29,809 nucleotides of DNA from a virus, in IMG/VR virus record IMGVR_UViG_3300025767_000090, positions 1-29,809 of that record; one strand, given 5' to 3'. The notes below the pieces were generated by a model. That model was given only the letters and a program-made list of their open reading frames with translations, ran no database searches and was not told the origin of the DNA. Both the position numbers and the translations under genes were made by a program. Shown here piece after piece: positions 2,908 to 29,239 of the stretch. The first letter of the stretch is position 1; the number at the start of each line of letters is the position of its first letter.

Positions 2908-3168
2908 ATGCTAAGTAATGGCAGAGTTTCAGTAGGCACAGTCGCAGTTCCGATAGATGGTGTTTACGAGCAGTATGCGCGAATGATTTTGCACAATGAT
3001 GACAACACAGATGCTGTTTACATTGGTGCTGCTGGTGTTACTACCACTACGGGACTCGTTCTACAGAAAGAACAGACGATTGACATTGGCATTGGCCCAT
3101 TAGAACAGCTATATGCCGTTTCGGGCAAAACAGGTCATACGATTAGCTTTCTAAGGCAGACGATCTAA
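2908..3168 (+). CDS. Small beta-rich head-region protein, function unknown
   Basis: This 86-residue protein starts directly after the portal stop and overlaps the protease gene by one base (TAATG). It is rich in alternating hydrophobic residues, Gly, Thr and Val, with HNDDNTDAVYIG and an AVSGKTGHTISFL ending, which suggests a compact beta sandwich and no membrane segment. Position between portal and protease suggests a minor capsid, decoration or assembly role, but no family can be named with certainty. Small proteins of this look recur next to portals in actinophages, which is general knowledge and not a domain assignment. Confidence 0.75.
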   Translation: MLSNGRVSVGTVAVPIDGVYEQYARMILHNDDNTDAVYIGAAGVTTTTGLVLQKEQTIDIGIGPLEQLYAVSGKTGHTISFLRQTI

Positions 3169-4724
3169 TGCCATACTTCATCACAGATGAGCACCCAGAC
3201 TGCGCAGAGTGGGCTGTGGTGAAAGAAGATGGCGAACTGCTGGCGTGCCACGAAACCAAAGAATCAGCCATAGACCAAATGATCGCGGTATCCCTAGCCG
3301 AAGAAATGGAACCCGGAGGCGACTACACAGGATCTTTCCGCGCCGCTCCCGATGAGCTAGATGTTGGTGACTTTGTTCGGTGGCGATCTAGCGGAGGAAC
3401 AGCGCGCGGCCGTATCGTGCGTATTGTGCGTGATGGTTCGATAGATGTGCCAGATGCTAATGTTACGATCAACGGAACTGATAATGACCCAGCCGCACTT
3501 ATTGCTATTTACCGGGAAGGTGAGGATGGCTGGAAAGAAACAGATGTCAGAGTAGGCCACCGGTTTTCAACACTAACCAAGATTGACTCACTAAGATCTG
3601 ACAGCTACACAGAAATAAGACAAGTAAACCTCAGCCCACCATCGTATATGCGTGCCGCCGCTAGGCAGGGACTTCGCTACTACGAGGAAGGTAAGGGTGG
3701 CGATGGACTGGTTGCGCGAACTATACGCGAGGCTAGGGCTATGTCAGCTGGTAATGTCAGCGCTGACAAATGGGTTAGGCTTCGGGCTTGGCTTGCTCGT
3801 CACTTGGTTGATTTGGACAGTGCCGCCGCCAATCCTGATTCAGACGATTATCCTAGTGCTGGCGTAGTGGCTCACTTGCTTTGGGGATCTGGTCCAAGCA
3901 AAGCCGCAGCACGCCGCACCTTAGCTTACGCAGAGCGCATTGTGACTAGACTAGAGGAAGAAAATCGCGCACTAACAAGTGCCAGAGGTGAGAGTATGTC
4001 AAAGATAGAAATACGAAATACCCCAGCGAATTTTGAGATTCGCGAAGAGGGCAACGGGATGACCTTTGAGGGATACGCGGCTGTGTTCAATTCCGACAGC
4101 GCACCCCTACCTTTTATTGAGCGTATAGCGCCGGGAGCTTTTAGTCGCTCACTAAAGCGCGGCCGCAACGACATCAAGCTTTTGTGGAATCACGAAACCG
4201 GTGAAGTCTTGGGATCTACGCGTGCTGGGACACTAACCCTAGAAGAAGATAGCCGAGGCCTAAAGGTTCGTGCTGAACTGCCAGAAACATCAACTGGGCG
4301 TGATGCGGCGATCTTGCTGAAGCGAGGGGACATAGATTCTATGAGCTTTGGTTTCTCAGTCCCAGCTGGCGGTGACGATTGGAGTGATGATGGTAAGACT
4401 CGCACTCTCAACTCGGTCAGGCTACACGAAGTTAGCATTGTGGCCTTCCCTGCGTATTCAGCAACCGCTGGCACAACTATGGTGCGCGGACTAGATAAGG
4501 TTGCCCAGCGTGCGGCTGTTGATAGCGATGCGCTGGCAGATGCGGTGCTGAAGCTAGAAGAAGGATCTAACCTGACTAGCTCCGATGCCGAACTACTAAG
4601 AACTGTCATTGACCAGCTAGCACCAGTTCAGGAAGAAACTGAACCAGCACAGCCGGTAGATGAGGGTGACAAAGCTATGCTAGAACTTATGAAAGCAAAG
4701 CTAAAACTGATGGGTGGAAACTAA
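3168..4724 (+). CDS. Multidomain head protein with C-terminal HK97 prohead protease
   Basis: At 518 residues this is more than twice the usual prohead protease (about 200-230). Four modules can be seen. Residues 1-50 form a short Trp/Cys-containing segment ending in EEMEPGG. Residues 66-137 (VGDFVRWRSSGGTARGRI...VGHRFSTLTKI) resemble the small Tudor-like HVA1/DUF2945 beta fold. Residues about 160-262 are a helical module (RQGLRYYEEGKGGDGL...GVVAHLLWG) known attached to other phage head proteins. Residues about 277-465 are the S78/U35 protease with FEGYAAVFN, catalytic His in LWNHE near 341, catalytic Ser in MSFGF near 392, and EVSIVAFPAY. The protease trims scaffold and capsid N-termini. An internal in-frame ATG at 3996 with a strong ribosome site may give the protease alone. 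Confidence 0.9.
   Translation: MPYFITDEHPDCAEWAVVKEDGELLACHETKESAIDQMIAVSLAEEMEPGGDYTGSFRAAPDELDVGDFVRWRSSGGTARGRIVRIVRDGSIDVPDANVTINGTDNDPAALIAIYREGEDGWKETDVRVGHRFSTLTKIDSLRSDSYTEIRQVNLSPPSYMRAAARQGLRYYEEGKGGDGLVARTIREARAMSAGNVSADKWVRLRAWLARHLVDLDSAAANPDSDDYPSAGVVAHLLWGSGPSKAAARRTLAYAERIVTRLEEENRALTSARGESMSKIEIRNTPANFEIREEGNGMTFEGYAAVFNSDSAPLPFIERIAPGAFSRSLKRGRNDIKLLWNHETGEVLGSTRAGTLTLEEDSRGLKVRAELPETSTGRDAAILLKRGDIDSMSFGFSVPAGGDDWSDDGKTRTLNSVRLHEVSIVAFPAYSATAGTTMVRGLDKVAQRAAVDSDALADAVLKLEEGSNLTSSDAELLRTVIDQLAPVQEETEPAQPVDEGDKAMLELMKAKLKLMGGN
3982..3998 (+). promoter_or_regulatory. Internal ribosome site and start before the protease module
   Basis: The sequence AGGTGAGAG lies 1-9 bases before an in-frame ATG (3996) that begins MSKIEIR, exactly where the protease module starts. 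An AGGTGA core at this spacing is a good Shine-Dalgarno match and better than the site before the annotated start at 3168. This suggests a second 242-residue product of ordinary prohead protease length. It is an inference from the sequence only. Confidence 0.5.
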
Positions 4725-4960
4725 TGGCAAAGCGCGATGAAATCAAGAAGGTCATTCTCTCGGTCGCTGGCGATCCTGAGAGCGGCGTAATCGTTCAGCT
4801 CGCAGATGCTTGGGCTGATGCGATCGCAAGTCTAGACACAGCTACTCCCTACAACCCAAGTGCCAGAGATGGTGACGGAGACGGGAAAGTTCAGGATGGA
4901 ACTGCACACGAAAGACCTGCGAATGAAAAGCGAGTAACCAAGGCTAGCGAAACGCGCTAG
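4724..4960 (+). CDS. Small protein with DGDGDGK acidic loop, head region
   Basis: This 78-residue protein overlaps the protease stop by one base (TAATG). Residues 1-40 look helical. The second half carries a loop ARDGDGDGKVQDGT followed by HERP and a basic end. Asp-rich DxDxDG loops bind calcium in EF-hand-like and dockerin-like folds, and such tails occur in other actinophage structural proteins, so metal binding is plausible but unproven. It is the last gene before a strong terminator, so it closes the first head transcription unit. A scaffold or minor capsid role is possible; no family is recognised. Confidence 0.75.
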   Translation: MAKRDEIKKVILSVAGDPESGVIVQLADAWADAIASLDTATPYNPSARDGDGDGKVQDGTAHERPANEKRVTKASETR

Positions 4961-4976
4961 TAGCAAACAGCTCGCA

Positions 4977-5017
4977 CCCGGCCAGTCCTCTTTCTACTGG
5001 CCGGGTTTTTCTTTTTC
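4977..5017 (+). terminator. Intrinsic terminator after the first head operon
   Basis: A perfect 10-bp GC-rich stem (CCCGGCCAGT at 4977-4986 pairing with ACTGGCCGGG at 4996-5005) encloses a 9-nt loop and is followed by TTTTTCTTTTT. This is a textbook rho-independent terminator. It separates the terminase-protease unit from the small cassette that follows. Confidence 0.95.
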
Positions 5018-5040
5018 GCTATTGAAAAATTATTTTATTT

Positions 5041-5087
5041 TTTTACTAAATAGTTGCTTTTAGTTACTTTTAGGTTATAGTAGTTAG
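5041..5087 (+). promoter_or_regulatory. Promoter of the three-gene cassette (early-type repeat)
   Basis: TTGCTT (5054-5059), a 16-nt spacer and TATAGT (5076-5081) fit a sigma70-type promoter, with transcription expected near 5088. The surrounding sequence is AT-rich and shares blocks with the 25610 region: TTGAAAAA, ACTAAATAGTTG, TTTAGTTA, TTTTAGG, TTATAGT. A TAGTTAG element lies at 5081-5087. The likeness to two other early-region leaders suggests shared control. Confidence 0.75.
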
Positions 5088-5341
5088 TAAGGAAAGGATA
5101 AAAAATGAACAAGCCACTACCTCAAAACATAATCAACCAAAAGCAAACGCTCAACGAGGTTCTTTGGGTAGCCGAAGTTAGCAACGCTAGTAGCCAAAAC
5201 ACTGTTCGGGCTTATGCAAAGTCAATTTCAGAAGCGCTAAGCCTTGTTGATAACTTTGCTATACAGCAACTTTCAGGAAGCGTAGTTCTTTCAATTGAAT
5301 TAGACAAGAACTAATGAGAATAAGGAAAGGATAAAAAATGA
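5088..5341 (+). repeat. Duplicated 21-nt leader with ribosome site
   Basis: The same 21 bases, containing AAGGAAAGGA, a run of A and the ATG, occur at 5088-5108 and again at 5321-5341, before the first and second cassette genes. The exact copy suggests that the leader, or an ancestral gene with it, was duplicated, or that both genes need matched high translation. The repeats include the start codons at 5105 and 5338. Confidence 0.85.
5105..5314 (+). CDS. Unknown cassette protein 1 (69 aa)
   Basis: The start at ATG 5105 is set by a strong ribosome site (AAGGAAAGGA). The 69-residue product has a polar N-terminus rich in Asn and Gln (PLPQNIINQKQTLNE), then a segment EVLWVAEVSN...TVRAYAKSISEALSLVDNF that could form a small alpha/beta fold, ending VVLSIELDKN. 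No signal peptide or membrane segment is visible and no family is recognised. It is the first gene of a unit bounded by terminators and driven by an early-type promoter, so expression apart from the head genes is likely. Confidence 0.7.
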   Translation: MNKPLPQNIINQKQTLNEVLWVAEVSNASSQNTVRAYAKSISEALSLVDNFAIQQLSGSVVLSIELDKN

Positions 5342-5532
5342 CCACGATCCAGCAACTAGAGTCAGAGATAGCCGAGGCGGAGCAGCTAGTTCAGCTTTAC
5401 ACCAAGCTAGGCGAAACTTATATGGCAATCGGCAAGCGCGATCAGGCTTACGCCAAGCGTAACGAAGCGGTGGCTCAACAGAGCCGCCTGCTAACACTAA
5501 AGGCAATACTAAAAAGCAAAGGACAGAACTAA
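5338..5532 (+). CDS. Unknown cassette protein 2, short coiled coil (64 aa)
   Basis: The start at 5338 lies inside the second copy of the duplicated leader. The 64-residue product is almost wholly helical by composition, with heptad-like spacing of Leu, Ile and Ala (IQQLESEIAEAEQLVQLYTKLGETY and a second stretch to LKAILKSKG), so a coiled-coil hairpin or oligomer is likely. There is no Cys or membrane segment. The stop overlaps the next ATG (TAATG), which suggests translational coupling. Function is unknown. Confidence 0.7.
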   Translation: MTTIQQLESEIAEAEQLVQLYTKLGETYMAIGKRDQAYAKRNEAVAQQSRLLTLKAILKSKGQN

Positions 5533-5819
5533 TGATCAAGCAATTTCACGAAGTAATCGAAGAAGCACCAAGTTACTGCGAGAACATCGCAGGGCTGGCT
5601 CAATGGTCAACTAACTACGACTACCAACTAGGCACGCCATACTTGGCTTTCCTAGATCTAATTGGATACTCACAAGAACATTTAGACGACACAATAAACC
5701 CAAGTGGCTTCGTGCTAGATTATGTTTCCGTAGATCTACTAGCTGATGCGCTAAAAGAATGGGCGGCGCGACCAGCAGATTGTTCGACTTACATTGACGA
5801 ACTATGGGAGGCCGAATAG
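5532..5819 (+). CDS. Unknown strongly acidic cassette protein 3 (95 aa)
   Basis: This 95-residue protein is translationally coupled to the previous gene. By direct count it has 18 Asp/Glu and only 3 Lys/Arg, a net charge near -15, with several aromatic residues (WSTNYDYQLG, FLDLIGYS, FVLDYVSVD). Small, very acidic phage proteins can be DNA mimics that block restriction or host DNA-binding proteins (Ocr and ArdA types), but no sequence match to those families is claimed. It is the last gene of the terminator-bounded cassette. Function is unknown; the DNA-mimic idea is an inference. Confidence 0.7.
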   Translation: MIKQFHEVIEEAPSYCENIAGLAQWSTNYDYQLGTPYLAFLDLIGYSQEHLDDTINPSGFVLDYVSVDLLADALKEWAARPADCSTYIDELWEAE

Positions 5820-5827
5820 AAAACTTG

Positions 5828-5867
5828 CTAGCCGCTAGATCTTCTTTCCTTTCAACCTAGCCGCTAG
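5828..5867 (+). repeat. Direct repeat CTAGCCGCTAG
   Basis: The 11-mer CTAGCCGCTAG occurs at 5828-5838 and 5857-5867, in non-coding DNA just after the cassette and before the terminator hairpin. The motif also occurs inside genes of this CTAG-rich genome, so it may be compositional and not a binding site. Confidence 0.5.
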
Positions 5868-5878
5868 CAGCCCAGCGG

Positions 5879-5912
5879 AAGCCGTCACTACCCCCTGTGG
5901 CGGCTTTCGCCT
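5879..5912 (+). terminator. Hairpin terminator after the cassette
   Basis: AAGCCGTCAC (5879-5888) pairs with GTGGCGGCTT (5897-5906) with a single U-G wobble around an 8-nt loop, followed by TCGCCTTATCC. The stem is strong but the T tract is poor, so termination may be partial or the hairpin may be an RNA processing or stabilising site upstream of the capsid gene. Confidence 0.65.
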
Positions 5913-6047
5913 TATCCTCTAGGCAATGACCCCAGCTGAGTGTCAAACCCTTTGATACACTATTTGTGACCGAAAGTGAGTTAGCTCTGTCGGTGATCGC
6001 TAGCGTTAGCGCGGCGGCAAACACTAACCAATTCAAAGGAGATCTAA
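5913..6047 (+). promoter_or_regulatory. Leader region of the major capsid gene
   Basis: This 135-base non-coding stretch precedes the capsid gene. A candidate -10 (TACACT, 5956-5961) overlaps an inverted repeat TCAAA-CCC-TTTGA (5943-5955), but no convincing -35 is seen. A small hairpin (CGCTA/TAGCG) lies in the later leader. The ribosome site is a strong AAAGGAG 7 bases before ATG 6048, the best in the late region. An untranslated leader of about 80 nt and a dedicated promoter are inferred. Confidence 0.45.
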
Positions 6048-7205
6048 ATGTCTTTCATCAAGACACAGCAGGAACTCCGCGCCAACCTCTACGAGCAGGT
6101 CAAGGAAACCCTTGATGTCGCAGAGGCTGACAAGCGTGGACTCTTGCCAGATGAGGTTGAGAAGATCAACCGCATCGAAGCAGACATTCGCTCAGCTGAT
6201 GAGGCAATCGCAGTTGCACAGCGCAACGAGGAGAGGTCAAGGGCTGCCGCTGAGGCAAGTGCCGAGGCTACCCCGATTGTTTCTGAGAGCCGTTCGGATG
6301 CCGACATTCTACGCGCGATCGCAATGGGCGAGCAGCGCAGCGCAACCTTCGAGAAGCGCGCACTCGTAAACTCAGACAACACAGTTCCTAAGTCGTTCTA
6401 CGATGAGGTATTTTCTGTTGCTCGTCTGGTTGGTCCAATGCTGGACACCTCCGAGATCATCTCTACCACTTCTGGCGAGAACCTCACTATCCCAACGCTC
6501 ACCGGATACAGCACCGCAACCATCAAGGCTGCTGGTTCTGCTATCGCTGAGAGCGAGCCAACCTTCAGCTCAATCACTCTAGGTGCCTTCAAGTATTCAT
6601 TCTTGGTTCAGGTTGCCAACGAGCTAATCGCTGATGCTGGATTCGACATCTCGGCTCTTATCGCTGAGCAGGCTGGTAACGGCCTTGGCTACGCAGTCAA
6701 CACCGGTCTAACCACTGGAACTGGAACTGTTGAGCCAAATGGTGTAGTCACCGCAGCTGGATCTGCCCTTACTGGTGGAACTGGTGTTACTGGTGCATTC
6801 ACCGCCGACAACCTCATTGACCTTGCCTACTCTCTAGACGGAGCGGCACGCCGCCTCCCCGGAGTTGGCTTTATGGCCAATGGTGCTTCCATCGGAAAGA
6901 TGCGCAAGCTGAAGGACGATGCAGGCAACTACCTCTACCAAGTTGGTGTTGGTCAGCCTGACTCATTCGCTGGCTTCCGCGTAGTAGAGAACCCCGGTAT
7001 GGCCGACACCGCAACCTCCGCTAAGTCTGTGATCTTCGGACACCTGCCTAGCTACAAGGTTCGTATGGCCGGCGGCCTACAGATCGCACAGTCAAGCGAC
7101 TATGCCTTCAACACCGATGTCACCACCTTCCGCGTCCTTATGCGCGTAGATGGAAACCTGACCCACGCTGGTCACATCAAATACTTCAAGGGTGGCGCTA
7201 GCTAA
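6048..7205 (+). CDS. HK97-fold major capsid protein
   Basis: This 385-residue protein builds the icosahedral shell. Residues 1-75 are charged and coiled-coil-like, matching the scaffolding delta domain that the prohead protease removes. The mature part starts around residue 105 (RALVNSDNTVPKSF) and follows the HK97 order: GPMLDTSEI, the N-arm and E-loop region, YSFLVQVANELIADAGFD spine helix, GNGLGYAVNTGLTTGTGT, and the late GFRVVENPGM and YKVRMAGGLQI strands. It has its own strong ribosome site and terminator, so it is expressed apart from its neighbours. Codon choice differs from the rest of the window: by reading through, no ATA isoleucine codon is used and CTA is a minority of Leu codons, which suggests selection for high expression. 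Confidence 0.95.
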   Translation: MSFIKTQQELRANLYEQVKETLDVAEADKRGLLPDEVEKINRIEADIRSADEAIAVAQRNEERSRAAAEASAEATPIVSESRSDADILRAIAMGEQRSATFEKRALVNSDNTVPKSFYDEVFSVARLVGPMLDTSEIISTTSGENLTIPTLTGYSTATIKAAGSAIAESEPTFSSITLGAFKYSFLVQVANELIADAGFDISALIAEQAGNGLGYAVNTGLTTGTGTVEPNGVVTAAGSALTGGTGVTGAFTADNLIDLAYSLDGAARRLPGVGFMANGASIGKMRKLKDDAGNYLYQVGVGQPDSFAGFRVVENPGMADTATSAKSVIFGHLPSYKVRMAGGLQIAQSSDYAFNTDVTTFRVLMRVDGNLTHAGHIKYFKGGAS

Positions 7206-7290: not shown

Positions 7291-8505
7291 ATGCCCACAA
7301 ATGACCCACGCAAAAAAGAAAAACTAGCCGGCGCGGTAACGCTCTGGTCTAACACTCCCGGAGTTAGCACAGGCTACGGAGTCCAAGCAAAGCAATTAGT
7401 AGATCGCCTAAAGCGACACGGGCTCGATGTAGCAGCCCTAAGTAACTATGGCTTAGAAGGTCGCTTTGAAGATCTAGAAACTCCGTATGGCAAAGTGCCA
7501 CATTTCCCACGCGGTTTTGATGGTTACTCTAATGATGTCGCGCCTAATGACCACCTAGCTTGGGCAGCTAAGCACGCTGAACTGCCAGATCTGATGCTGA
7601 CTCTCTACGATGTGTGGGTGATGAAGAACCCTAAGTTTAGGGAGATACGGCAGATCGCCAGTTGGGTGCCGCTGGATCACATAACTATGCCACCGCTGGT
7701 TGAGCGCTGGTTGAGACAAGAGAATGTCCACCCGATAGCAATGGCACCTAGTGGCTCTGAGTTATTAGAAGGCGCTGGTATTGAACACAGCTACATACCG
7801 CACTCGGTTGATACTAAAGTTTTTAGATCGCGTGAAAGCTTGCCCGATGGCCAGAAGGTAGAAGATTACTTTGGCTCTAAGGATAAGTTCGTGGTGGGAA
7901 TGGTTGCGGCTAATAAAGCCAGCGGCTTAGTTCATCGCAAGTCTTATAGCGAGAACATACTTGCCTTTTCAATCTTCAAACAAAAGCACCCTGATGCGAT
8001 CCTTTACCTACACACAGAACCGCTAGGTGTTATGGGAGGCTGGAACTTGATAGATCTAATACAAGCCTGCGGCCTAAGCAAAGATGATGTGATGTTCCCA
8101 GATCCACAGGACTACCGCTTCGGCGTGAGCGATGAAATGATGTCAGCGCTTTATTCAGGAATAGATGTATTGCTAGCGCCGAGTATGGGTGAGGGCTTTG
8201 GTGTTCCTACTATCGAAGCGCAAGCGTGTGGGACTAGGGTGATTGGATCTAACTGGGCGGCTAGCGCAAACCTAGTTAGTGAGGATGGCTGGCTAGTTGA
8301 TGGCCAACCGCAATGGGATAACGCACAAAAGGCTTGGTGGCAAATCCCTAAAGTTCCTTCAATAGTGGATGCGCTGAATAAGGCGTATGAAACGGGCAAA
8401 ACTAGATCTATGCCAGCGCGATCCTTCGCTAAAAACTTTGATACTGAAAAGGTGTGGTTTGAAAAGTGGATGCCGACACTAAAACAACTGCTATCCCAGT
8501 CTTAG
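7291..8505 (+). CDS. GT4-like (GT-B fold) glycosyltransferase
   Basis: The 404-residue protein probably transfers a sugar from an NDP-sugar to a protein or glycan. The N-terminal Rossmann half carries a glycine-rich segment (SNTPGVSTGYGVQAKQL) typical of the acceptor-side loop. The C-terminal half has the GT4 signature SMGEGFGVPTIEAQACGTRVIGS near residues 298-320, including the EX7E pair (E in GEGFG and E in TIEAQ) that binds the donor. No membrane segment is visible, so it acts in the cytoplasm. It lies between the capsid and connector genes and overlaps the next glycosyltransferase by 40 bases. Virion glycosylation is a sensible inference from the location; host surface modification is an alternative. 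Confidence 0.85.
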   Translation: MPTNDPRKKEKLAGAVTLWSNTPGVSTGYGVQAKQLVDRLKRHGLDVAALSNYGLEGRFEDLETPYGKVPHFPRGFDGYSNDVAPNDHLAWAAKHAELPDLMLTLYDVWVMKNPKFREIRQIASWVPLDHITMPPLVERWLRQENVHPIAMAPSGSELLEGAGIEHSYIPHSVDTKVFRSRESLPDGQKVEDYFGSKDKFVVGMVAANKASGLVHRKSYSENILAFSIFKQKHPDAILYLHTEPLGVMGGWNLIDLIQACGLSKDDVMFPDPQDYRFGVSDEMMSALYSGIDVLLAPSMGEGFGVPTIEAQACGTRVIGSNWAASANLVSEDGWLVDGQPQWDNAQKAWWQIPKVPSIVDALNKAYETGKTRSMPARSFAKNFDTEKVWFEKWMPTLKQLLSQS

Positions 8506-9140
8506 GCTTTGCCACGCTTAGTCGCTTTGACCTAGCCCAGCGATTACTGGACTCGATAGATTATCCGATCGAAGATCTTGTCATTGTGGACAACTCAGGC
8601 AAGCGCGAGTTTGAGCCAGTCATAGAAACCGACTTAGTGAAAAACACTTGGGTCATACAAGTTCCTTATGGGCTAGGAGCTAATGGGGCTTGGAATCTGA
8701 TTATCAAATCCACACCACACGCGCCTTATTGGGTTATACCTAATGATGACAGTTATTTCGCGCCGGGAGCTTTAGCAACTATCGCGGCCGAAGTTGATAC
8801 AACCGCCTTCAACTTTTTGGACATAAATCCTAAGTGGTCTTGTGTTATCCCCGGCGAAGGCGCAGTCCTTCAGGCTGGTTTGTGGGACGAGGTGTATCAC
8901 CCTATTTATTATGATGATGATGATTACGAATGGCGTATGGAAAAGCTAGGCGTTAGGTTCAATACGATCCCTGCCAAGGTCTATCACGACAACAGCTCAA
9001 CACTTAGAAGCGGATTTAGCGAGCGCAACAATGTCACATTCCAGCGCAATCGCTCTGTGTTTACAAATAAGAAAGTGTCAGAAAATACTGGCATACTAGG
9101 TTGGTCGCTGAAAGTGCGAAGGGAAAACAGGTGGGACTAA
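8466..9140 (+). CDS. GT2-like (GT-A fold) glycosyltransferase
   Basis: Starting at GTG 8466, within the end of the GT4 gene, this 224-residue protein opens with a GT-A Rossmann pattern (PVLGFATLSRFDLAQRLLDSI...DLVIVDNSG). It then has GLGANGAWNLIIKS and a metal-binding NDDS motif near residues 97-100, and a DDDDYEWRMEKLGVRF segment where GT2 enzymes have the catalytic ED/acidic motif. It is a compact enzyme with no membrane segment. The gene overlaps the cytidylyltransferase start by 10 bases, so the three probably form one operon. The donor and acceptor are unknown. Confidence 0.8.
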   Translation: MDADTKTTAIPVLGFATLSRFDLAQRLLDSIDYPIEDLVIVDNSGKREFEPVIETDLVKNTWVIQVPYGLGANGAWNLIIKSTPHAPYWVIPNDDSYFAPGALATIAAEVDTTAFNFLDINPKWSCVIPGEGAVLQAGLWDEVYHPIYYDDDDYEWRMEKLGVRFNTIPAKVYHDNSSTLRSGFSERNNVTFQRNRSVFTNKKVSENTGILGWSLKVRRENRWD

Positions 9141-9562
9141 GGATCTATACCGGCGGAACATTTGACTTGTTTCACGCAGGGCACGTCGAGTTCTTGCGCA
9201 AGTGCAAACAGCTAGGCGAAGTTGTCGTTGCCCTAAACACCGATGAGTTCATAACTGCGTATAAGAAAAAGCCACCAGTCTTGACTTATACAGAGCGGCT
9301 AAATGTTTTGGCAGGATGCCGGTATGTAGATCGCGTAATACCTAATAGTGGCGGAGCGGATAGCAAGCCAGCTATCAAGTCTGTTATGCCAGATCTAGTA
9401 GCTATCGGGACAGACTGGGCGCGGAAAGATTATTTCAAGCAGATGCAGTTTGATGTTGATTGGCTAGAAGCCCACAGCATTGGGCTGGTCTATCTGCCCT
9501 ATACGCTGGGCATAAGTAGCACCGATGTCAAGAAAAGACTAGCCGCTACAATAGATGTCTAA
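9131..9562 (+). CDS. TagD-like cytidylyltransferase (nucleotidyltransferase)
   Basis: GTG 9131 is chosen because AAGGGAAAAC lies upstream at good spacing and the fold begins at once (LRIYTGGTFDLFH). Residues 15-18 are the HAGH (HxGH) nucleotide-binding signature, and the C-terminus carries GISSTDVKKRL, the ISSTxxKxR motif of the glycerol-3-phosphate cytidylyltransferase family. At 143 residues it is close to TagD (about 130). The family makes CDP-activated small molecules such as CDP-glycerol. Beside two glycosyltransferases it probably supplies an activated building block. The true substrate cannot be read from the sequence. Confidence 0.85.
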   Translation: MGLRIYTGGTFDLFHAGHVEFLRKCKQLGEVVVALNTDEFITAYKKKPPVLTYTERLNVLAGCRYVDRVIPNSGGADSKPAIKSVMPDLVAIGTDWARKDYFKQMQFDVDWLEAHSIGLVYLPYTLGISSTDVKKRLAATIDV

Positions 9563-9573
9563 GGAGATCCCAA

Positions 9574-10167
9574 ATGGCAATAACTAACGGATACGCAACC
9601 CTCGCGCAAGTCAAAGCCGCGATGAGAATTACTGACAATGTTGATGATGACCTGCTAGAGACAGCGATCGAATCAGCCTCGCGCCAGATAGACGGCCATT
9701 GCGAGCGCCGCTTTTATACGACAGCCACTACTAGGATCTACACACCTAACGACAGCTTTATTTGTGAAGTTGATGATCTAGTTAGTATCACCAGCCTAAA
9801 GACTTCTAGTGATGTTGATGGTTCGTTCGATACGACTTGGGCATCTACCGACTACCAGCTTGAACCACTAAATGGGATCGCTGGGGGTATGGATGTTAGC
9901 TATACCCAGATACGCGCGACCGGGGATTATCTATTCCCTCTGAGCGGCGGCGAAGCAACTGTGCAGGTTATCGGGACTTTTGGTTGGGATAATGTTCCCA
10001 GCGACATAGAGCAGGCCTGCATTATTTTGTCTCAGCGCCAATACAAGCGTTACGATTCCCCACTTGGTGTAGCTGGTATCGGAGACATTGGCATTATCCG
10101 CGTGAGCAGGATTGACCCAGATGTTGCTTCGATCCTCGCACCATACCGCAGGCTAAGGATGGCGTAA
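9574..10167 (+). CDS. Head-tail connector (gp6/Ad1-like adaptor)
   Basis: This 197-residue protein has an AAGGAG ribosome site and opens with the helical pattern of gp6-like head-tail connectors (YATLAQVKAAMRITDNVDDDLLETAIESASRQIDGHCERRFY), then beta-rich strands and a final helical DIEQACIILSQRQYKRYDSP segment. Such proteins form the ring below the portal. It overlaps the next gene by one base and stands in the correct place between capsid and tail genes, apart from the intervening glycan cassette. Confidence 0.85.
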   Translation: MAITNGYATLAQVKAAMRITDNVDDDLLETAIESASRQIDGHCERRFYTTATTRIYTPNDSFICEVDDLVSITSLKTSSDVDGSFDTTWASTDYQLEPLNGIAGGMDVSYTQIRATGDYLFPLSGGEATVQVIGTFGWDNVPSDIEQACIILSQRQYKRYDSPLGVAGIGDIGIIRVSRIDPDVASILAPYRRLRMA

Positions 10168-19481: not shown

Positions 19482-19836
19482 GTTGTATCTGAAGCAGTTT
19501 GGCCTACGATCGCTAGGTCTAACGCTAGCTACTTTCTTCGGCGGCACAGCTATTGGTGCGGTGGCCGGAGATTGGTTGATGGGTTCAATAATCGGTGTCG
19601 GTTCTGCTTTTGCCGTAGTCCTCACAACGATTGGTGTCTCGCTAGCTTGGAAAGGCACGCTAGAAATAACAGACATTCAAAATGCTTACCGCGCGGCGGT
19701 CGCTAAGTCTGACAGCGAAGCAGTCAAAGATGCATTAGAAGTCAATAAAGACGGCGACTTTGATTGGGATGATGTAGAGGACTCCCCGGACATTGATCCT
19801 GAGCTTTCAGAGGACGAGGATCTATCTTCTAAGTAA
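19474..19836 (+). CDS. Holin-like two-helix membrane protein with acidic tail
   Basis: ATG 19474 follows GGAGAAG in the endolysin end. The 120-residue protein has two predicted membrane helices (LRSLGLTLATFFGGTAIGAVAGDWL and IIGVGSAFAVVLTTIGVSLAW) and a long acidic tail with DIQNAYRAAVAKSDSEAVKDAL, NKDGDFDWDDVEDS, DPELSEDED. Two membrane helices beside an endolysin fit a class II-like holin. The NKDGDFDWDD loop resembles an EF-hand-type calcium loop. It ends inside the convergent WhiB gene. Holin identity is inferred from topology and place. Confidence 0.8.
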   Translation: MIRLYLKQFGLRSLGLTLATFFGGTAIGAVAGDWLMGSIIGVGSAFAVVLTTIGVSLAWKGTLEITDIQNAYRAAVAKSDSEAVKDALEVNKDGDFDWDDVEDSPDIDPELSEDEDLSSK

Positions 19837-20109
19837 GTTAGATCGCTCACGCGTAGTTAGCCCACCCCAGATCCCAGCAGTTTCTTTAGAGGCTAGCGCG
19901 TAATCTAGGCACTCATTTTCAAACAAGCAAGATCCACACAACTTTTTAGCCCAAGCTTCAACGCTGGCTTTTTCGATTGGCTCAAAAAAATCTTCAGGAA
20001 AAAATAGTTCAGGCCGCTTGCGGCAAGGCGGCACAAAGCCATTGCGATCATTCTCAGCCATAATGCGATGGTTCAAAGAAAGATACTTTTCTTGGGCTTC
20101 CCGGTTCAT
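19822..20109 (-). CDS. WhiB-family iron-sulfur regulator
   Basis: This 95-residue protein is the only reverse-strand gene. It has the four iron-sulfur cysteines C29, C58, C61 and C67 (PPCRKRPELFF, LCGSCLFENECLDYA) and the GIWGG turn at 79-83 followed by a basic tail (TTRERSNLLRR). WhiB proteins are restricted to Actinobacteria and their phages and bind the vegetative sigma factor region 4 to change promoter choice. Its gene ends tail-to-tail with the holin, overlapping by 15 bases. Phage WhiB copies are known to alter host septation genes and block superinfection in mycobacteria; the role here is unknown. Confidence 0.92.
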   Translation of the reverse strand: MNREAQEKYLSLNHRIMAENDRNGFVPPCRKRPELFFPEDFFEPIEKASVEAWAKKLCGSCLFENECLDYALASKETAGIWGGLTTRERSNLLRR

Positions 20110-20143: not shown

Positions 20144-20210
20144 GAGTTATAGTTGGGCTTGTCAGAAATCGGACTTAGGGTAACAATTAGTTACTTATAG
20201 TTAGGAATGA
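20144..20210. promoter_or_regulatory. Divergent whiB / early gene control region
   Basis: Between the two divergent genes lie two copies of TTATAGTT (20147-20154 and 20195-20202) and TTAGTTACTT (20188-20197). These share blocks with the promoter repeats near 5050 and 25610. In the rightward direction TATAGT (20196-20201) is a candidate -10. In the leftward direction the complement gives TATAAC as a candidate -10 for whiB. Promoters in both directions are inferred. Confidence 0.6.
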
Positions 20211-25220: not shown

Positions 25221-25597
25221 TGGATGAGTTCGTTGTGCCGGGACAGCCGATACCGCAAGGATCTATGCGGCACGTCGGAGGCGGCAGGATTGTTAGTAAG
25301 AATCCCAAGCTGAAGAAGTGGCGTGAGCGTGTAGCTAAGGTCGTAAATGATCAATGCGGCTCTCCCGGTTACATCGAACCCATAGCAGTCACCATTCTGT
25401 TTCAGTTGCAAAAGCCAGCTAGCGCTAAGCGCGATTACCCAACTGTTCCTCCAGATCTAGACAAACTCCAAAGGGCAATAGGTGATGCCTTGTCAATAGA
25501 TGCTGGATACATAAAGGACGATGCGCAGATCGTAGAGTGGCACGCCACTAAGCAATACGGCGAACCTAGCGTGATAATTCGTGTAAAAAAACTTTGA
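25220..25597 (+). CDS. rusA: RusA-family Holliday junction resolvase
   Basis: This 125-residue enzyme cuts four-way DNA junctions. The three catalytic acids of the RusA family are present: D79 and D81 in PPDLDKLQRAIGDAL and D100 (or D101) in GYIKDDAQI, and the beginning VPGQPIPQGSMRHVGGG is the usual RusA N-terminus. Length is normal for the family. It starts by one-base overlap with the SSB gene and ends the replication block. It may resolve junctions before packaging. Confidence 0.92.
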   Translation: MDEFVVPGQPIPQGSMRHVGGGRIVSKNPKLKKWRERVAKVVNDQCGSPGYIEPIAVTILFQLQKPASAKRDYPTVPPDLDKLQRAIGDALSIDAGYIKDDAQIVEWHATKQYGEPSVIIRVKKL

Positions 25598-25601
25598 AAA
25601 A

Positions 25602-25670
25602 CTTTCACTAAATAGTTGTGTTTAGTTAGTTTTAGGCGTTATAGTTATTACTAGTTAGAAACGCTAACTA
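25602..25670 (+). promoter_or_regulatory. Early-type promoter with operator-like inverted repeat
   Basis: TTGTGT (25616-25621), an 18-nt spacer and TATAGT (25640-25645) form a plausible promoter. It shares ACTAAATAGTTG, TTTAGTTA, TTTTAGG and TTATAGT with the promoter at 5050. Just downstream TAGTTAG (25652-25658) and CTAACTA (25664-25670) form a 7-bp inverted repeat with a 5-nt loop, near the expected start of transcription, so it is a good operator candidate. Confidence 0.75.
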
Positions 25671-25687: not shown

Positions 25688-25861
25688 ATGAACATTTACA
25701 GCAACGAACCAACTACCAAGCTACTTACTTTGCTCATCGAGATGGTCGCAGACAAGCAAATGCTTCTAGCTAATGGTTTTGACAAGATTGCAGAGCAGGA
25801 TGACTTTGTTATCGCCAACATTATGAGCGAACTAGATTCAAGAAAACTGCAGGTGGCATGA
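25688..25861 (+). CDS. Small unknown protein (57 aa) leading the small-gene operon
   Basis: ATG 25688 follows the ribosome site GAAAGGAAACAAG. A TTG at 25673 would extend the frame by five residues but lies in the leader. The 57-residue product (NIYSNEPTTKLLTLLIEMVADKQMLLANGFDKIAEQDDFVIANIMSELDSRKLQVA) is mostly helix, with no membrane segment or Cys. It overlaps a small membrane gene by 4 bases. No family is recognised. Confidence 0.65.
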   Translation: MNIYSNEPTTKLLTLLIEMVADKQMLLANGFDKIAEQDDFVIANIMSELDSRKLQVA

Positions 25862-26422: not shown

Positions 26423-26610
26423 GCAAAGAAAGACTATCCATAACCGAGGTGGCGGAGATTATGGGTGTTCACCGCAACACAGTCCGCCGCTGGATACAAG
26501 ATGGAGACATACCGGCCGTAATCGTTGGCCGTAATCGTTACTTTATGGACACCAAAGATGTTCACGCACTAAAGATAGGAAGAGAATATGCCCCACGCAA
26601 AAACAACTGA
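26407..26610 (+). CDS. Excisionase/MerR-type HTH DNA-binding protein (67 aa)
   Basis: The TTG at 26407 is used with GAAAGG about 9 nt upstream. A clear helix-turn-helix lies at residues 11-32 (SITEVAEIMGVHRNTVRRWIQDGDIPAV), followed by the wing IVGRNRYFM. This is the excisionase/MerR-like HTH_17 form found in small phage regulators. With no integrase seen, a transcription-control role is more likely than excision. It could bind the operator-like repeats near 25650 and 5080. The stop overlaps the next gene by 23 bases. Confidence 0.75.
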   Translation: MADWLSKERLSITEVAEIMGVHRNTVRRWIQDGDIPAVIVGRNRYFMDTKDVHALKIGREYAPRKNN

Positions 26611-26887
26611 CCCAGAAACCAGCCACGCAGCTGCCGCTTCGGTCAGAAATGTAACCGAAACCCACAAGGCGATCCTAAGTATTTTTGATCGCTTCGGCTC
26701 AATGGTAGACGACAGGCTAGTTGAGCTTTACAACCTGAAGGTAGTTGGCGGGACAGCACCACGCGCCAGCCTTAGTGGTATCAAGACAAGGCGGAAGGAG
26801 CTAGTAGTTCGCGGCCTTATCCAAGACAGCGGCGATCGCAGGGTGCTGGAAAGCGGTCGCAAAGCTATAGTTTGGAGCAGAGTATGA
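26588..26887 (+). CDS. Winged-helix-like small phage protein (99 aa)
   Basis: The 99-residue product begins with TTDPETSHAAAASV, a motif shared by many small phage proteins, and continues with a helix-turn-helix-like series (THKAILSIFDRFGSMVDDRLVELYNLKVVGGTAPRASLSGIKTRRKELVVRGLIQDSG), where the last part resembles a winged-helix recognition helix and wing. DNA binding is probable. Its targets are unknown. It overlaps the next gene by 4 bases (ATGA). Confidence 0.7.
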   Translation: MPHAKTTDPETSHAAAASVRNVTETHKAILSIFDRFGSMVDDRLVELYNLKVVGGTAPRASLSGIKTRRKELVVRGLIQDSGDRRVLESGRKAIVWSRV

Positions 26888-28117: not shown

Positions 28118-29239
28118 ATGCTAGAGAACCTAGAGCCAGCGCGCAAACCAGAACCGCAGCCATTCGGCAAGCCAGCGGTTGAGTTCGATGGTAGCGAAGG
28201 TGTTGCCGTCACACCCGGCCTAAGCACCGAAGCTAACTTCGCTGAGTTCCTAGCAGAAGCTGGGTTCGATCCTGAGCTATACGAAGTCGTAGGCACACCT
28301 CGCACTAGCCGATGGCAGAAATACGATGGCGATTGGCTCACCAGCTATCGCTTTCACTTTCGTGTAAAAAATCCGGGGGATAGCCTTACGCTTCTCTGGT
28401 CGCGCGCAAAAGCACCTAAGCCTGCAAAGTTAGACACTAACCAATGCACGATAGTTGTTGGCTGGTCAGATACGCAGACTGGCAAGACTGGCTCACGCGG
28501 TAACACCACAGATCTTGTGGAAAGGATTGCCGCCAAACAAAGCGCACTTGTTTCTTTCATCAAGAAGCACAAGCCAGAAGCCGCGATCTTCCTAAATGTT
28601 GGAGACAGCATAGAAGGCTTTGAGAACACAGGTGGCCAGCTCTTCACAAATGATCTAAGCCTTATGGAGCAAGTAGATCTTGAAGCGACCTTCCAATGGG
28701 AAACGCTGAAGCTTCTAGCTAAGCACACAGGCAAGGTAACGGCAGCCGCCGTAGGATCTAATCATTGTCAATGGCGCAAGGGTAAGGATCGCTTAGGTAA
28801 TCCCTTAGATGATTGGGGTATCCACATTCAGCGCCAGCTTGCGCGACTGGCACAGGAAACTAAACAGCCCATCAAGTTCTTAGAGCCACAGCCTTACGAT
28901 GAGTCGCTAGCGATCCCAGTCTATGATGAAATCCTTGGTTTAGTTCACGGCCATCAAGCCAACAGACCAGAGGCAATCCCTAACTGGTGGCGTGGTCAAT
29001 CACACGGCGATCAAGCAGTAGCCGATGCAACTATTCTCAACACCGGTCACTTTCACCATCTCAGAATTATGGAGACAGGCAGAAGAAACAGCAGATCGCG
29101 CTGGTGGATACAGATGCCAACCCTAGACAATGGCTCAGACTGGTATCGCCAAAGGTATGGTGACGACAGCGATCCCGGACTGTGTGTTTATCTTCTTTAC
29201 CCTAATCAACCCTTTAGCGGAACAGTCCACAAGCTCTAA
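28118..29239 (+). CDS. Calcineurin-like metallophosphoesterase (phage type)
   Basis: The 373-residue protein has an N-terminal alpha/beta part of about 110 residues, then a calcineurin-like phosphoesterase domain: DTQ near 118-120, GDSIEG (162-167), GSNHC (213-217), VHGHQ near 274 and GHFHH near 305-310. These give the metal-binding D-x-H/Q, GD, GNH(D/E), GHxH residues of the superfamily, slightly altered (SDTQ and GSNH). Such enzymes in actinophages are often near the terminase and may act on DNA or nucleotides. The exact substrate is not known. The next gene overlaps its stop by one base. Confidence 0.85.
   Translation: MLENLEPARKPEPQPFGKPAVEFDGSEGVAVTPGLSTEANFAEFLAEAGFDPELYEVVGTPRTSRWQKYDGDWLTSYRFHFRVKNPGDSLTLLWSRAKAPKPAKLDTNQCTIVVGWSDTQTGKTGSRGNTTDLVERIAAKQSALVSFIKKHKPEAAIFLNVGDSIEGFENTGGQLFTNDLSLMEQVDLEATFQWETLKLLAKHTGKVTAAAVGSNHCQWRKGKDRLGNPLDDWGIHIQRQLARLAQETKQPIKFLEPQPYDESLAIPVYDEILGLVHGHQANRPEAIPNWWRGQSHGDQAVADATILNTGHFHHLRIMETGRRNSRSRWWIQMPTLDNGSDWYRQRYGDDSDPGLCVYLLYPNQPFSGTVHKL

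Follow-up and report, generated by a model that had tools for sequence, protein, structure and literature searches.

Morons have been defined as extra units between genes that are adjacent in related phages, with their own promoter and terminator and a different base composition, and expressed from the repressed prophage (PMC4378225). In the Mu-like phages of Pseudomonas, plasticity regions have been described, including the anti-CRISPR region G and a region H between the protease-scaffold gene and the major head gene; gene h of PaMx73 and lambda gpD are found at this kind of position, between protease-scaffold and major head genes (PMC4378225). The nearest named relative of the virus studied here is the Pontimonas phage phiPsal1, which has been described as lytic and non-integrated and as occurring in small amounts alongside P. 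salivibrio, a marine bacterium of the Microbacteriaceae (PMC6106888). The window, that is, the whole stretch of DNA analysed, is a virus record of 29.8 kb. It encodes a capsid protein with 62% identity to the one of phiPsal1, and its hosts are probably marine actinobacteria. The capsid gene had no match in sequenced bacterial genomes, so there is no prophage link to the host. For comparison, 80 related capsid-gene loci were taken from viral contigs. In 70 fetched loci and the window (71 in total) it was possible to measure the gap that separates a conserved 78-aa gene from the capsid gene, and occupancy of this gap was followed on a capsid tree of 72 rows.

Where does the cassette sit, and what is there without it? 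The left flank is the head maturation protease gene (Peptidase_S78, 3168-4724, plus strand; Pfam PF04586, E 6.7e-45), followed by the 78-aa head-operon gene (4724-4960, plus strand), the last gene before the seam. The latter is kept in nearly all relatives (tblastn; most loci) and weakly matches phrog_7924, which is annotated as unknown. The protease unit is then closed by an intrinsic terminator (4976-5011, plus strand) with an 11-bp stem without mismatch, a folding energy of -21.3 kcal/mol and a U-run, just as the original prediction had described it. A consensus scan missed this terminator because its loop has 9 nt and the scan was limited to loops of at most 8 nt. On the right side stand a putative capsid promoter (5950-5966, plus strand; -10 TACACT at 5956-5961), which abuts the conserved leader upstream in all loci, and the capsid mRNA leader with two tandem covarying hairpins (5969-6021, plus strand), which forms the right border of the seam and lies outside the cassette. 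The right flank is the major capsid protein gene (6048-7205, plus strand; Pfam PF05065, E 1.4e-53).

The gap from the 78-aa gene to the capsid gene is bimodal: 47 loci have 153-250 bp, 24 have 813-1557 bp, and none of the 71 loci falls between. Apart from the terminator and the capsid leader, short gaps have nothing but a -10-like TGTAAAAT. Long gaps have the same left and right borders with two to five small genes inside. By a strict scan, the left terminator was found in 38 of the 47 empty loci and in 20 of the 24 filled ones. Because it is present without a cassette, it is an old boundary of two transcription units and not a part of the cassette. Judged from this comparison of filled and empty loci, the site is a pre-existing seam which cassettes enter. 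Two points of the original prediction need adjustment in this light. The cassette had been called terminator-bounded, and it does have a terminator on its left and hairpins on its right, but this terminator predates the cassette. It had also been said to split the protease from the capsid gene; it does lie between them, but in relatives without a cassette the terminator already splits the unit. In the more distant phages phiC31, Shawty and a gut phage, the protease gene lies almost next to the capsid gene, with no such seam. One locus, L077, differs from L038 by a single clean insertion of 74 bp exactly at the junction of terminator and capsid promoter (alignment columns 164-241). This insertion is geneless and consists of a promoter-like sequence, which resembles the capsid promoter, and a hairpin with a U-run. 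It could be an 'empty' cassette, or the origin of a very short RNA.

Is there turnover at the seam? The 24 filled loci carry 17 distinct cassettes with 32 small-gene families. On the capsid tree the filled or empty state changed at least four times, and three of these changes are forced by well-supported branches. For example, the close sisters L064 and L068 are filled and empty, respectively. Cassette contents are unrelated among relatives whose capsids are 69-92% identical. Within clades, the promoter-distal genes are kept and the promoter-proximal ones are exchanged fastest. One clade shows the family series F6-F2-F3, F21-F2-F3, F20-F2-F3 and F22-F31-F2-F3, and the clade of the window shows F5-F1-F0 (window), F13-F1-F0 (L006), F13-F4-F1-F0 (L002) and F4-F0 (L007).

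In the window the cassette consists of three ORFs on the plus strand at 5105-5314, 5338-5532 and 5532-5819 (genes 1, 2 and 3), which encode proteins of 69, 64 and 95 aa as originally read. An AAGGA Shine-Dalgarno sequence precedes each of them, and genes 1 and 2 have the identical leader AAGGAAAGGATAAAAAATG. Behind gene 3 follow two hairpins on the plus strand, hairpin A (5827-5868, CTAGC-C-GCTAG arms, -15.1 kcal/mol) and the terminator-like hairpin B (5875-5910, 14-bp stem, -26.6 kcal/mol). Both are without a good U-run; hairpins of 14-15 bp also close the 3' end of several other cassettes, and they may insulate the unit from the capsid gene. The GC contents of genes 1, 2 and 3 are 0.41, 0.50 and 0.46, compared with 0.55 for the capsid gene and 0.51 for the portal-protease part. 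By codon usage the cassette is not separable from late or early genes and shows no transfer-marker signal.

The promoter region of the cassette (5041-5089, plus strand; putative -35 TTGCTT at 5054-5059 and -10 TATAGT at 5076-5081) is of early type. Aligned to the early-operon promoter region at 25603-25653 (plus strand), which lies directly after a RusA gene (25265-25597, PF05866, E 2.1e-16), it gives a score of 55, while 60 dinucleotide shuffles give 24.8±2.8 with a maximum of 35, and TATAGT is common to both. The promoter sharing that had been noticed from the letters alone is thus confirmed. At 20186-20201, upstream of a YqaJ recombinase gene that is the first of a rightward early operon, the TTTAGTTA-TTTTAGG promoter block recurs in a weaker and only suggestive copy with 3 mismatches, which may be a third early promoter. 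Close by, at the junction of the late and early regions, a WhiB-like regulator is encoded on the minus strand (19822-20109, PF02467, E 9.4e-16).

Does the same sharing occur in other phages? In G014, whose cassette genes are unrelated to those of the window and whose promoter sequence is different, the cassette promoter matches two other places in the same phage with scores of 65 and 62 (shuffles 25.5±2.4), and one of the matching copies lies directly after a RusA gene, as in the window. On sequence grounds, we regard this as an independent replication and the strongest evidence for the early character of the cassettes. A weaker match, 34 versus 25.4±1.8 in shuffles, was found in G005, where the gene just after the promoter match (28173-28382) is homologous to the gene that opens the L011 cassette. 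G003/G010, G004, G019 and G017 showed no promoter sharing, but some of these records are too short for an early region, which makes this negative less than decisive; the exact promoter pattern had no match when searched in all viral contigs. The gene that opens the 25.6-kb early operon (25688-25861) is, by eye, about 93% identical to a gene of G014 (L110, about 9931-10104). The capsids of the two phages are only 69% identical, and such a similarity despite this distance suggests a recent exchange of the early gene.

These observations lead us to the following scenario, to which we assign a probability of about 0.72: the seam in the head operon is a docking site for accessory genes, and the cassettes docked there are early units, probably with a role in host takeover or counter-defence. 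The protease unit would stop at the terminator and the capsid gene would be served by its own promoter and leader, so that DNA inserted between them disturbs neither. Each inserted unit would comprise two to five small genes with 3' hairpins behind them and, in front, an early-type promoter copied from the early operon of the same phage, and such units would be inserted, exchanged and lost at the seam. In the window, the unit would be transcribed by the host RNA polymerase together with the 25.6-kb early operon, well ahead of the head genes around it. The encoded proteins would most likely target the host soon after infection, in takeover or counter-defence; by analogy with the Mu-like accessory regions, this is suggested by their early character and small size, by how rapidly they are exchanged and by their lack in relatives. 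The original proposal of an accessory unit is borne out: 47 of the 71 loci lack it, the genes within it are replaced, its promoter copies an early one, and homologues of gene 3 stand in early operons.

What might the cassette genes do? Gene 1 has a homologue (60%) in the L069/L070 cassette. Its AF2 model, made from 2 sequences, is a beta-beta-alpha-beta-beta arrangement with a mean pLDDT of 73, and a fold search gave weak matches only, to a common small fold. Searched alone in viral contigs, it had no relative outside the capsid loci. Gene 2 encodes a basic protein (pI 9.1) with homologues in the cassettes of L002-L006; a 52-aa coil gene in front of the gene-3 homologue of L096 was compared with it and is not homologous. 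No match of genes 1-3 to named phages was found by tblastn, and no HTH family was among their Pfam matches. In Pfam and PHROGs, the cassette proteins match families of unknown function, with one weak match to an HNH endonuclease. PADLOC matched no defence or anti-defence model in the window or in any cassette protein, and none of the 32 families has an assigned counter-defence function. The likeliest alternative is a hotspot of mostly neutral genes, or of genes for general early metabolism or regulation, at a seam that simply tolerates insertions. The absence of assigned functions and the geneless insertion in L077 fit this, but the copying of early promoters argues for a useful timing of expression, and the acidity and fold of gene 3 are conserved in both actinophages and cyanophages, which means that at least this gene is under selection. 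We consider this alternative rather unlikely.

Gene 3 encodes an acidic protein with a predicted all-helical structure. It matches phrog_33275 (annotated as of unknown function) with E 2.2e-4, and the profile of this family is matched by 15 of the 16 members collected here (gene 3 and 14 of its 15 relatives), at best with 2.1e-12. A profile search found relatives outside the head operon. In L096 the homologue is in an early operon, between homologues of RusA (25265-25597) and of the gene at 26588-26887, and this slot is the place of the early promoter in the window. More distant relatives lie within runs of small genes in other phages. In the T7-like cyanophages 9515-10a and P-SSP10, the homologue has the terminase gene on one side and, downstream, the RNA polymerase gene; by analogy with the T7-type gene order, this stretch would be class I early. 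A cyanophage homologue of the protein is PROG_00037. No paper was found in the literature on these cyanophage early genes.

Because the protein is very acidic (18 D/E and 3 K/R by our count, as stated originally), it had been suggested that it could be a DNA mimic such as Ocr or ArdA. The acidity stands as a family trait, with net charge from -9 to -17 and pI 4.05-4.57 in 16/16 members. The early position also suits a mimic, as does the DNA methyltransferase gene that directly follows the gene-3 homologue in cyanophage 9515-10a (L130, 4938-5897). But the fold gives the suggestion no support. The AF2 model is confident and all-helical (pLDDT 94.6), Foldseek found no match to it in the PDB at E<0.001, and VIA-align gave a best Z of 3.9 to unrelated proteins with no mimic listed; structural matches were solely within its own family. 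The conserved columns of the family consist mainly of structural W, S, N, P, F, L and G, and there is no match in Pfam. The acidity is thus a selected trait of the family, but the model does not support a DNA-mimic fold, and we think a mimic quite improbable. Least probable, by a small margin, is that genes 1-3 are late head accessory genes (decoration, chaperone or scaffold) like lambda gpD or protein h of PaMx73, as their position between the protease and capsid genes might suggest, since the cassette has its own early-type promoter, is missing from two thirds of the relatives and has unrelated contents even where capsids are closely similar, homologues of gene 3 lie in early regions far from head genes, and homology of genes 1-3 to head, scaffold and decoration families, which the original prediction had set against itself, was looked for in PHROGs and Pfam and none was found.

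The right border of the seam deserves its own description. Each of the tandem hairpins at 5969-6021 has an outer stem and, beyond an asymmetric internal loop, an inner stem of 3 bp with a UNAN tetraloop. Among 46 distinct sequences, 10 of the 15 pairs show compensatory changes, and the number of compensatory cells is 59, compared with 18.2±4.5 in shuffles (0 of 500 reach it). If the pairing is slid by 1-3 columns, paired cells fall from 89% to 30-56%. RNAalifold, unprompted, gave the same two-hairpin structure. A covariance model finds one match per phage, at the capsid gene and none elsewhere, and also matches seven loci outside its building (L021, L022, L046, L051, L053, L054 and L076); altogether the hairpins precede capsid genes in about 70 loci. 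No Rfam family matched the leader, the model has no match in phiC31, Shawty and a gut phage, and no paper on a capsid leader RNA was found. On covariation, the leader is a candidate for a new regulatory RNA, possibly one that regulates capsid genes of the HK97 type. As a guess, it could be a translational operator or an assembly-linked control of capsid synthesis.

Why does this locus matter? It is an address in unannotated aquatic actinophages where swappable host-interaction genes would gather, and the 32 small-gene families from 17 cassettes make a ready screening list. It also illustrates how an early unit may live in a late operon, by means of a seam of terminator and promoter and a copied early promoter. 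More tentatively, and with the odds somewhat against it, the seam could be a site dedicated to the exchange of counter-defence or takeover genes within the head operon, in a family of aquatic actinophages that is widespread, with cassettes copying whichever early promoter the phage uses and phrog_33275 being a host-inhibitor family common to actinophages and T7-like cyanophages.

How does the cassette compare with known systems? Like phage morons, it is an extra unit between genes that are adjacent in close relatives, and it has its own putative promoter and terminator-like hairpins. Unlike them, the cassettes hold two to five genes rather than one, their promoter duplicates an early promoter of the phage itself, and they sit at a terminator that exists without them. 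As the nearest named relative is described as lytic (PMC6106888), expression from a prophage is not an obvious role. In the Mu-like plasticity regions, too, small ORFs vary at fixed positions while the genome around them is conserved, and some of these ORFs are counter-defence genes; the phages and genes are different, however, and no HTH (Aca-type) regulator was detected in the window cassette. With the early region of cyanophages 9515-10a and P-SSP10 a gene-3 homologue is in common, whereas phage type and host differ, and for phrog_33275 the difference is that its member here is found inside a head operon. The window shares with phiPsal1 the head gene order, the glycosyltransferases after the capsid gene and the tandem leader hairpins, but in phiPsal1 the site is empty. 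In the window, two glycosyltransferase-like genes and one cytidylyltransferase-like gene lie between the capsid and neck genes (7291-9562), and the presence of glycosyltransferases there in both phages suggests a sugar modification of the virion. Taken together, the sequence comparison gives good evidence for mobility and for copying of an early promoter, and the cassette would be a real early-type moron or accessory region, a unit of a known kind.
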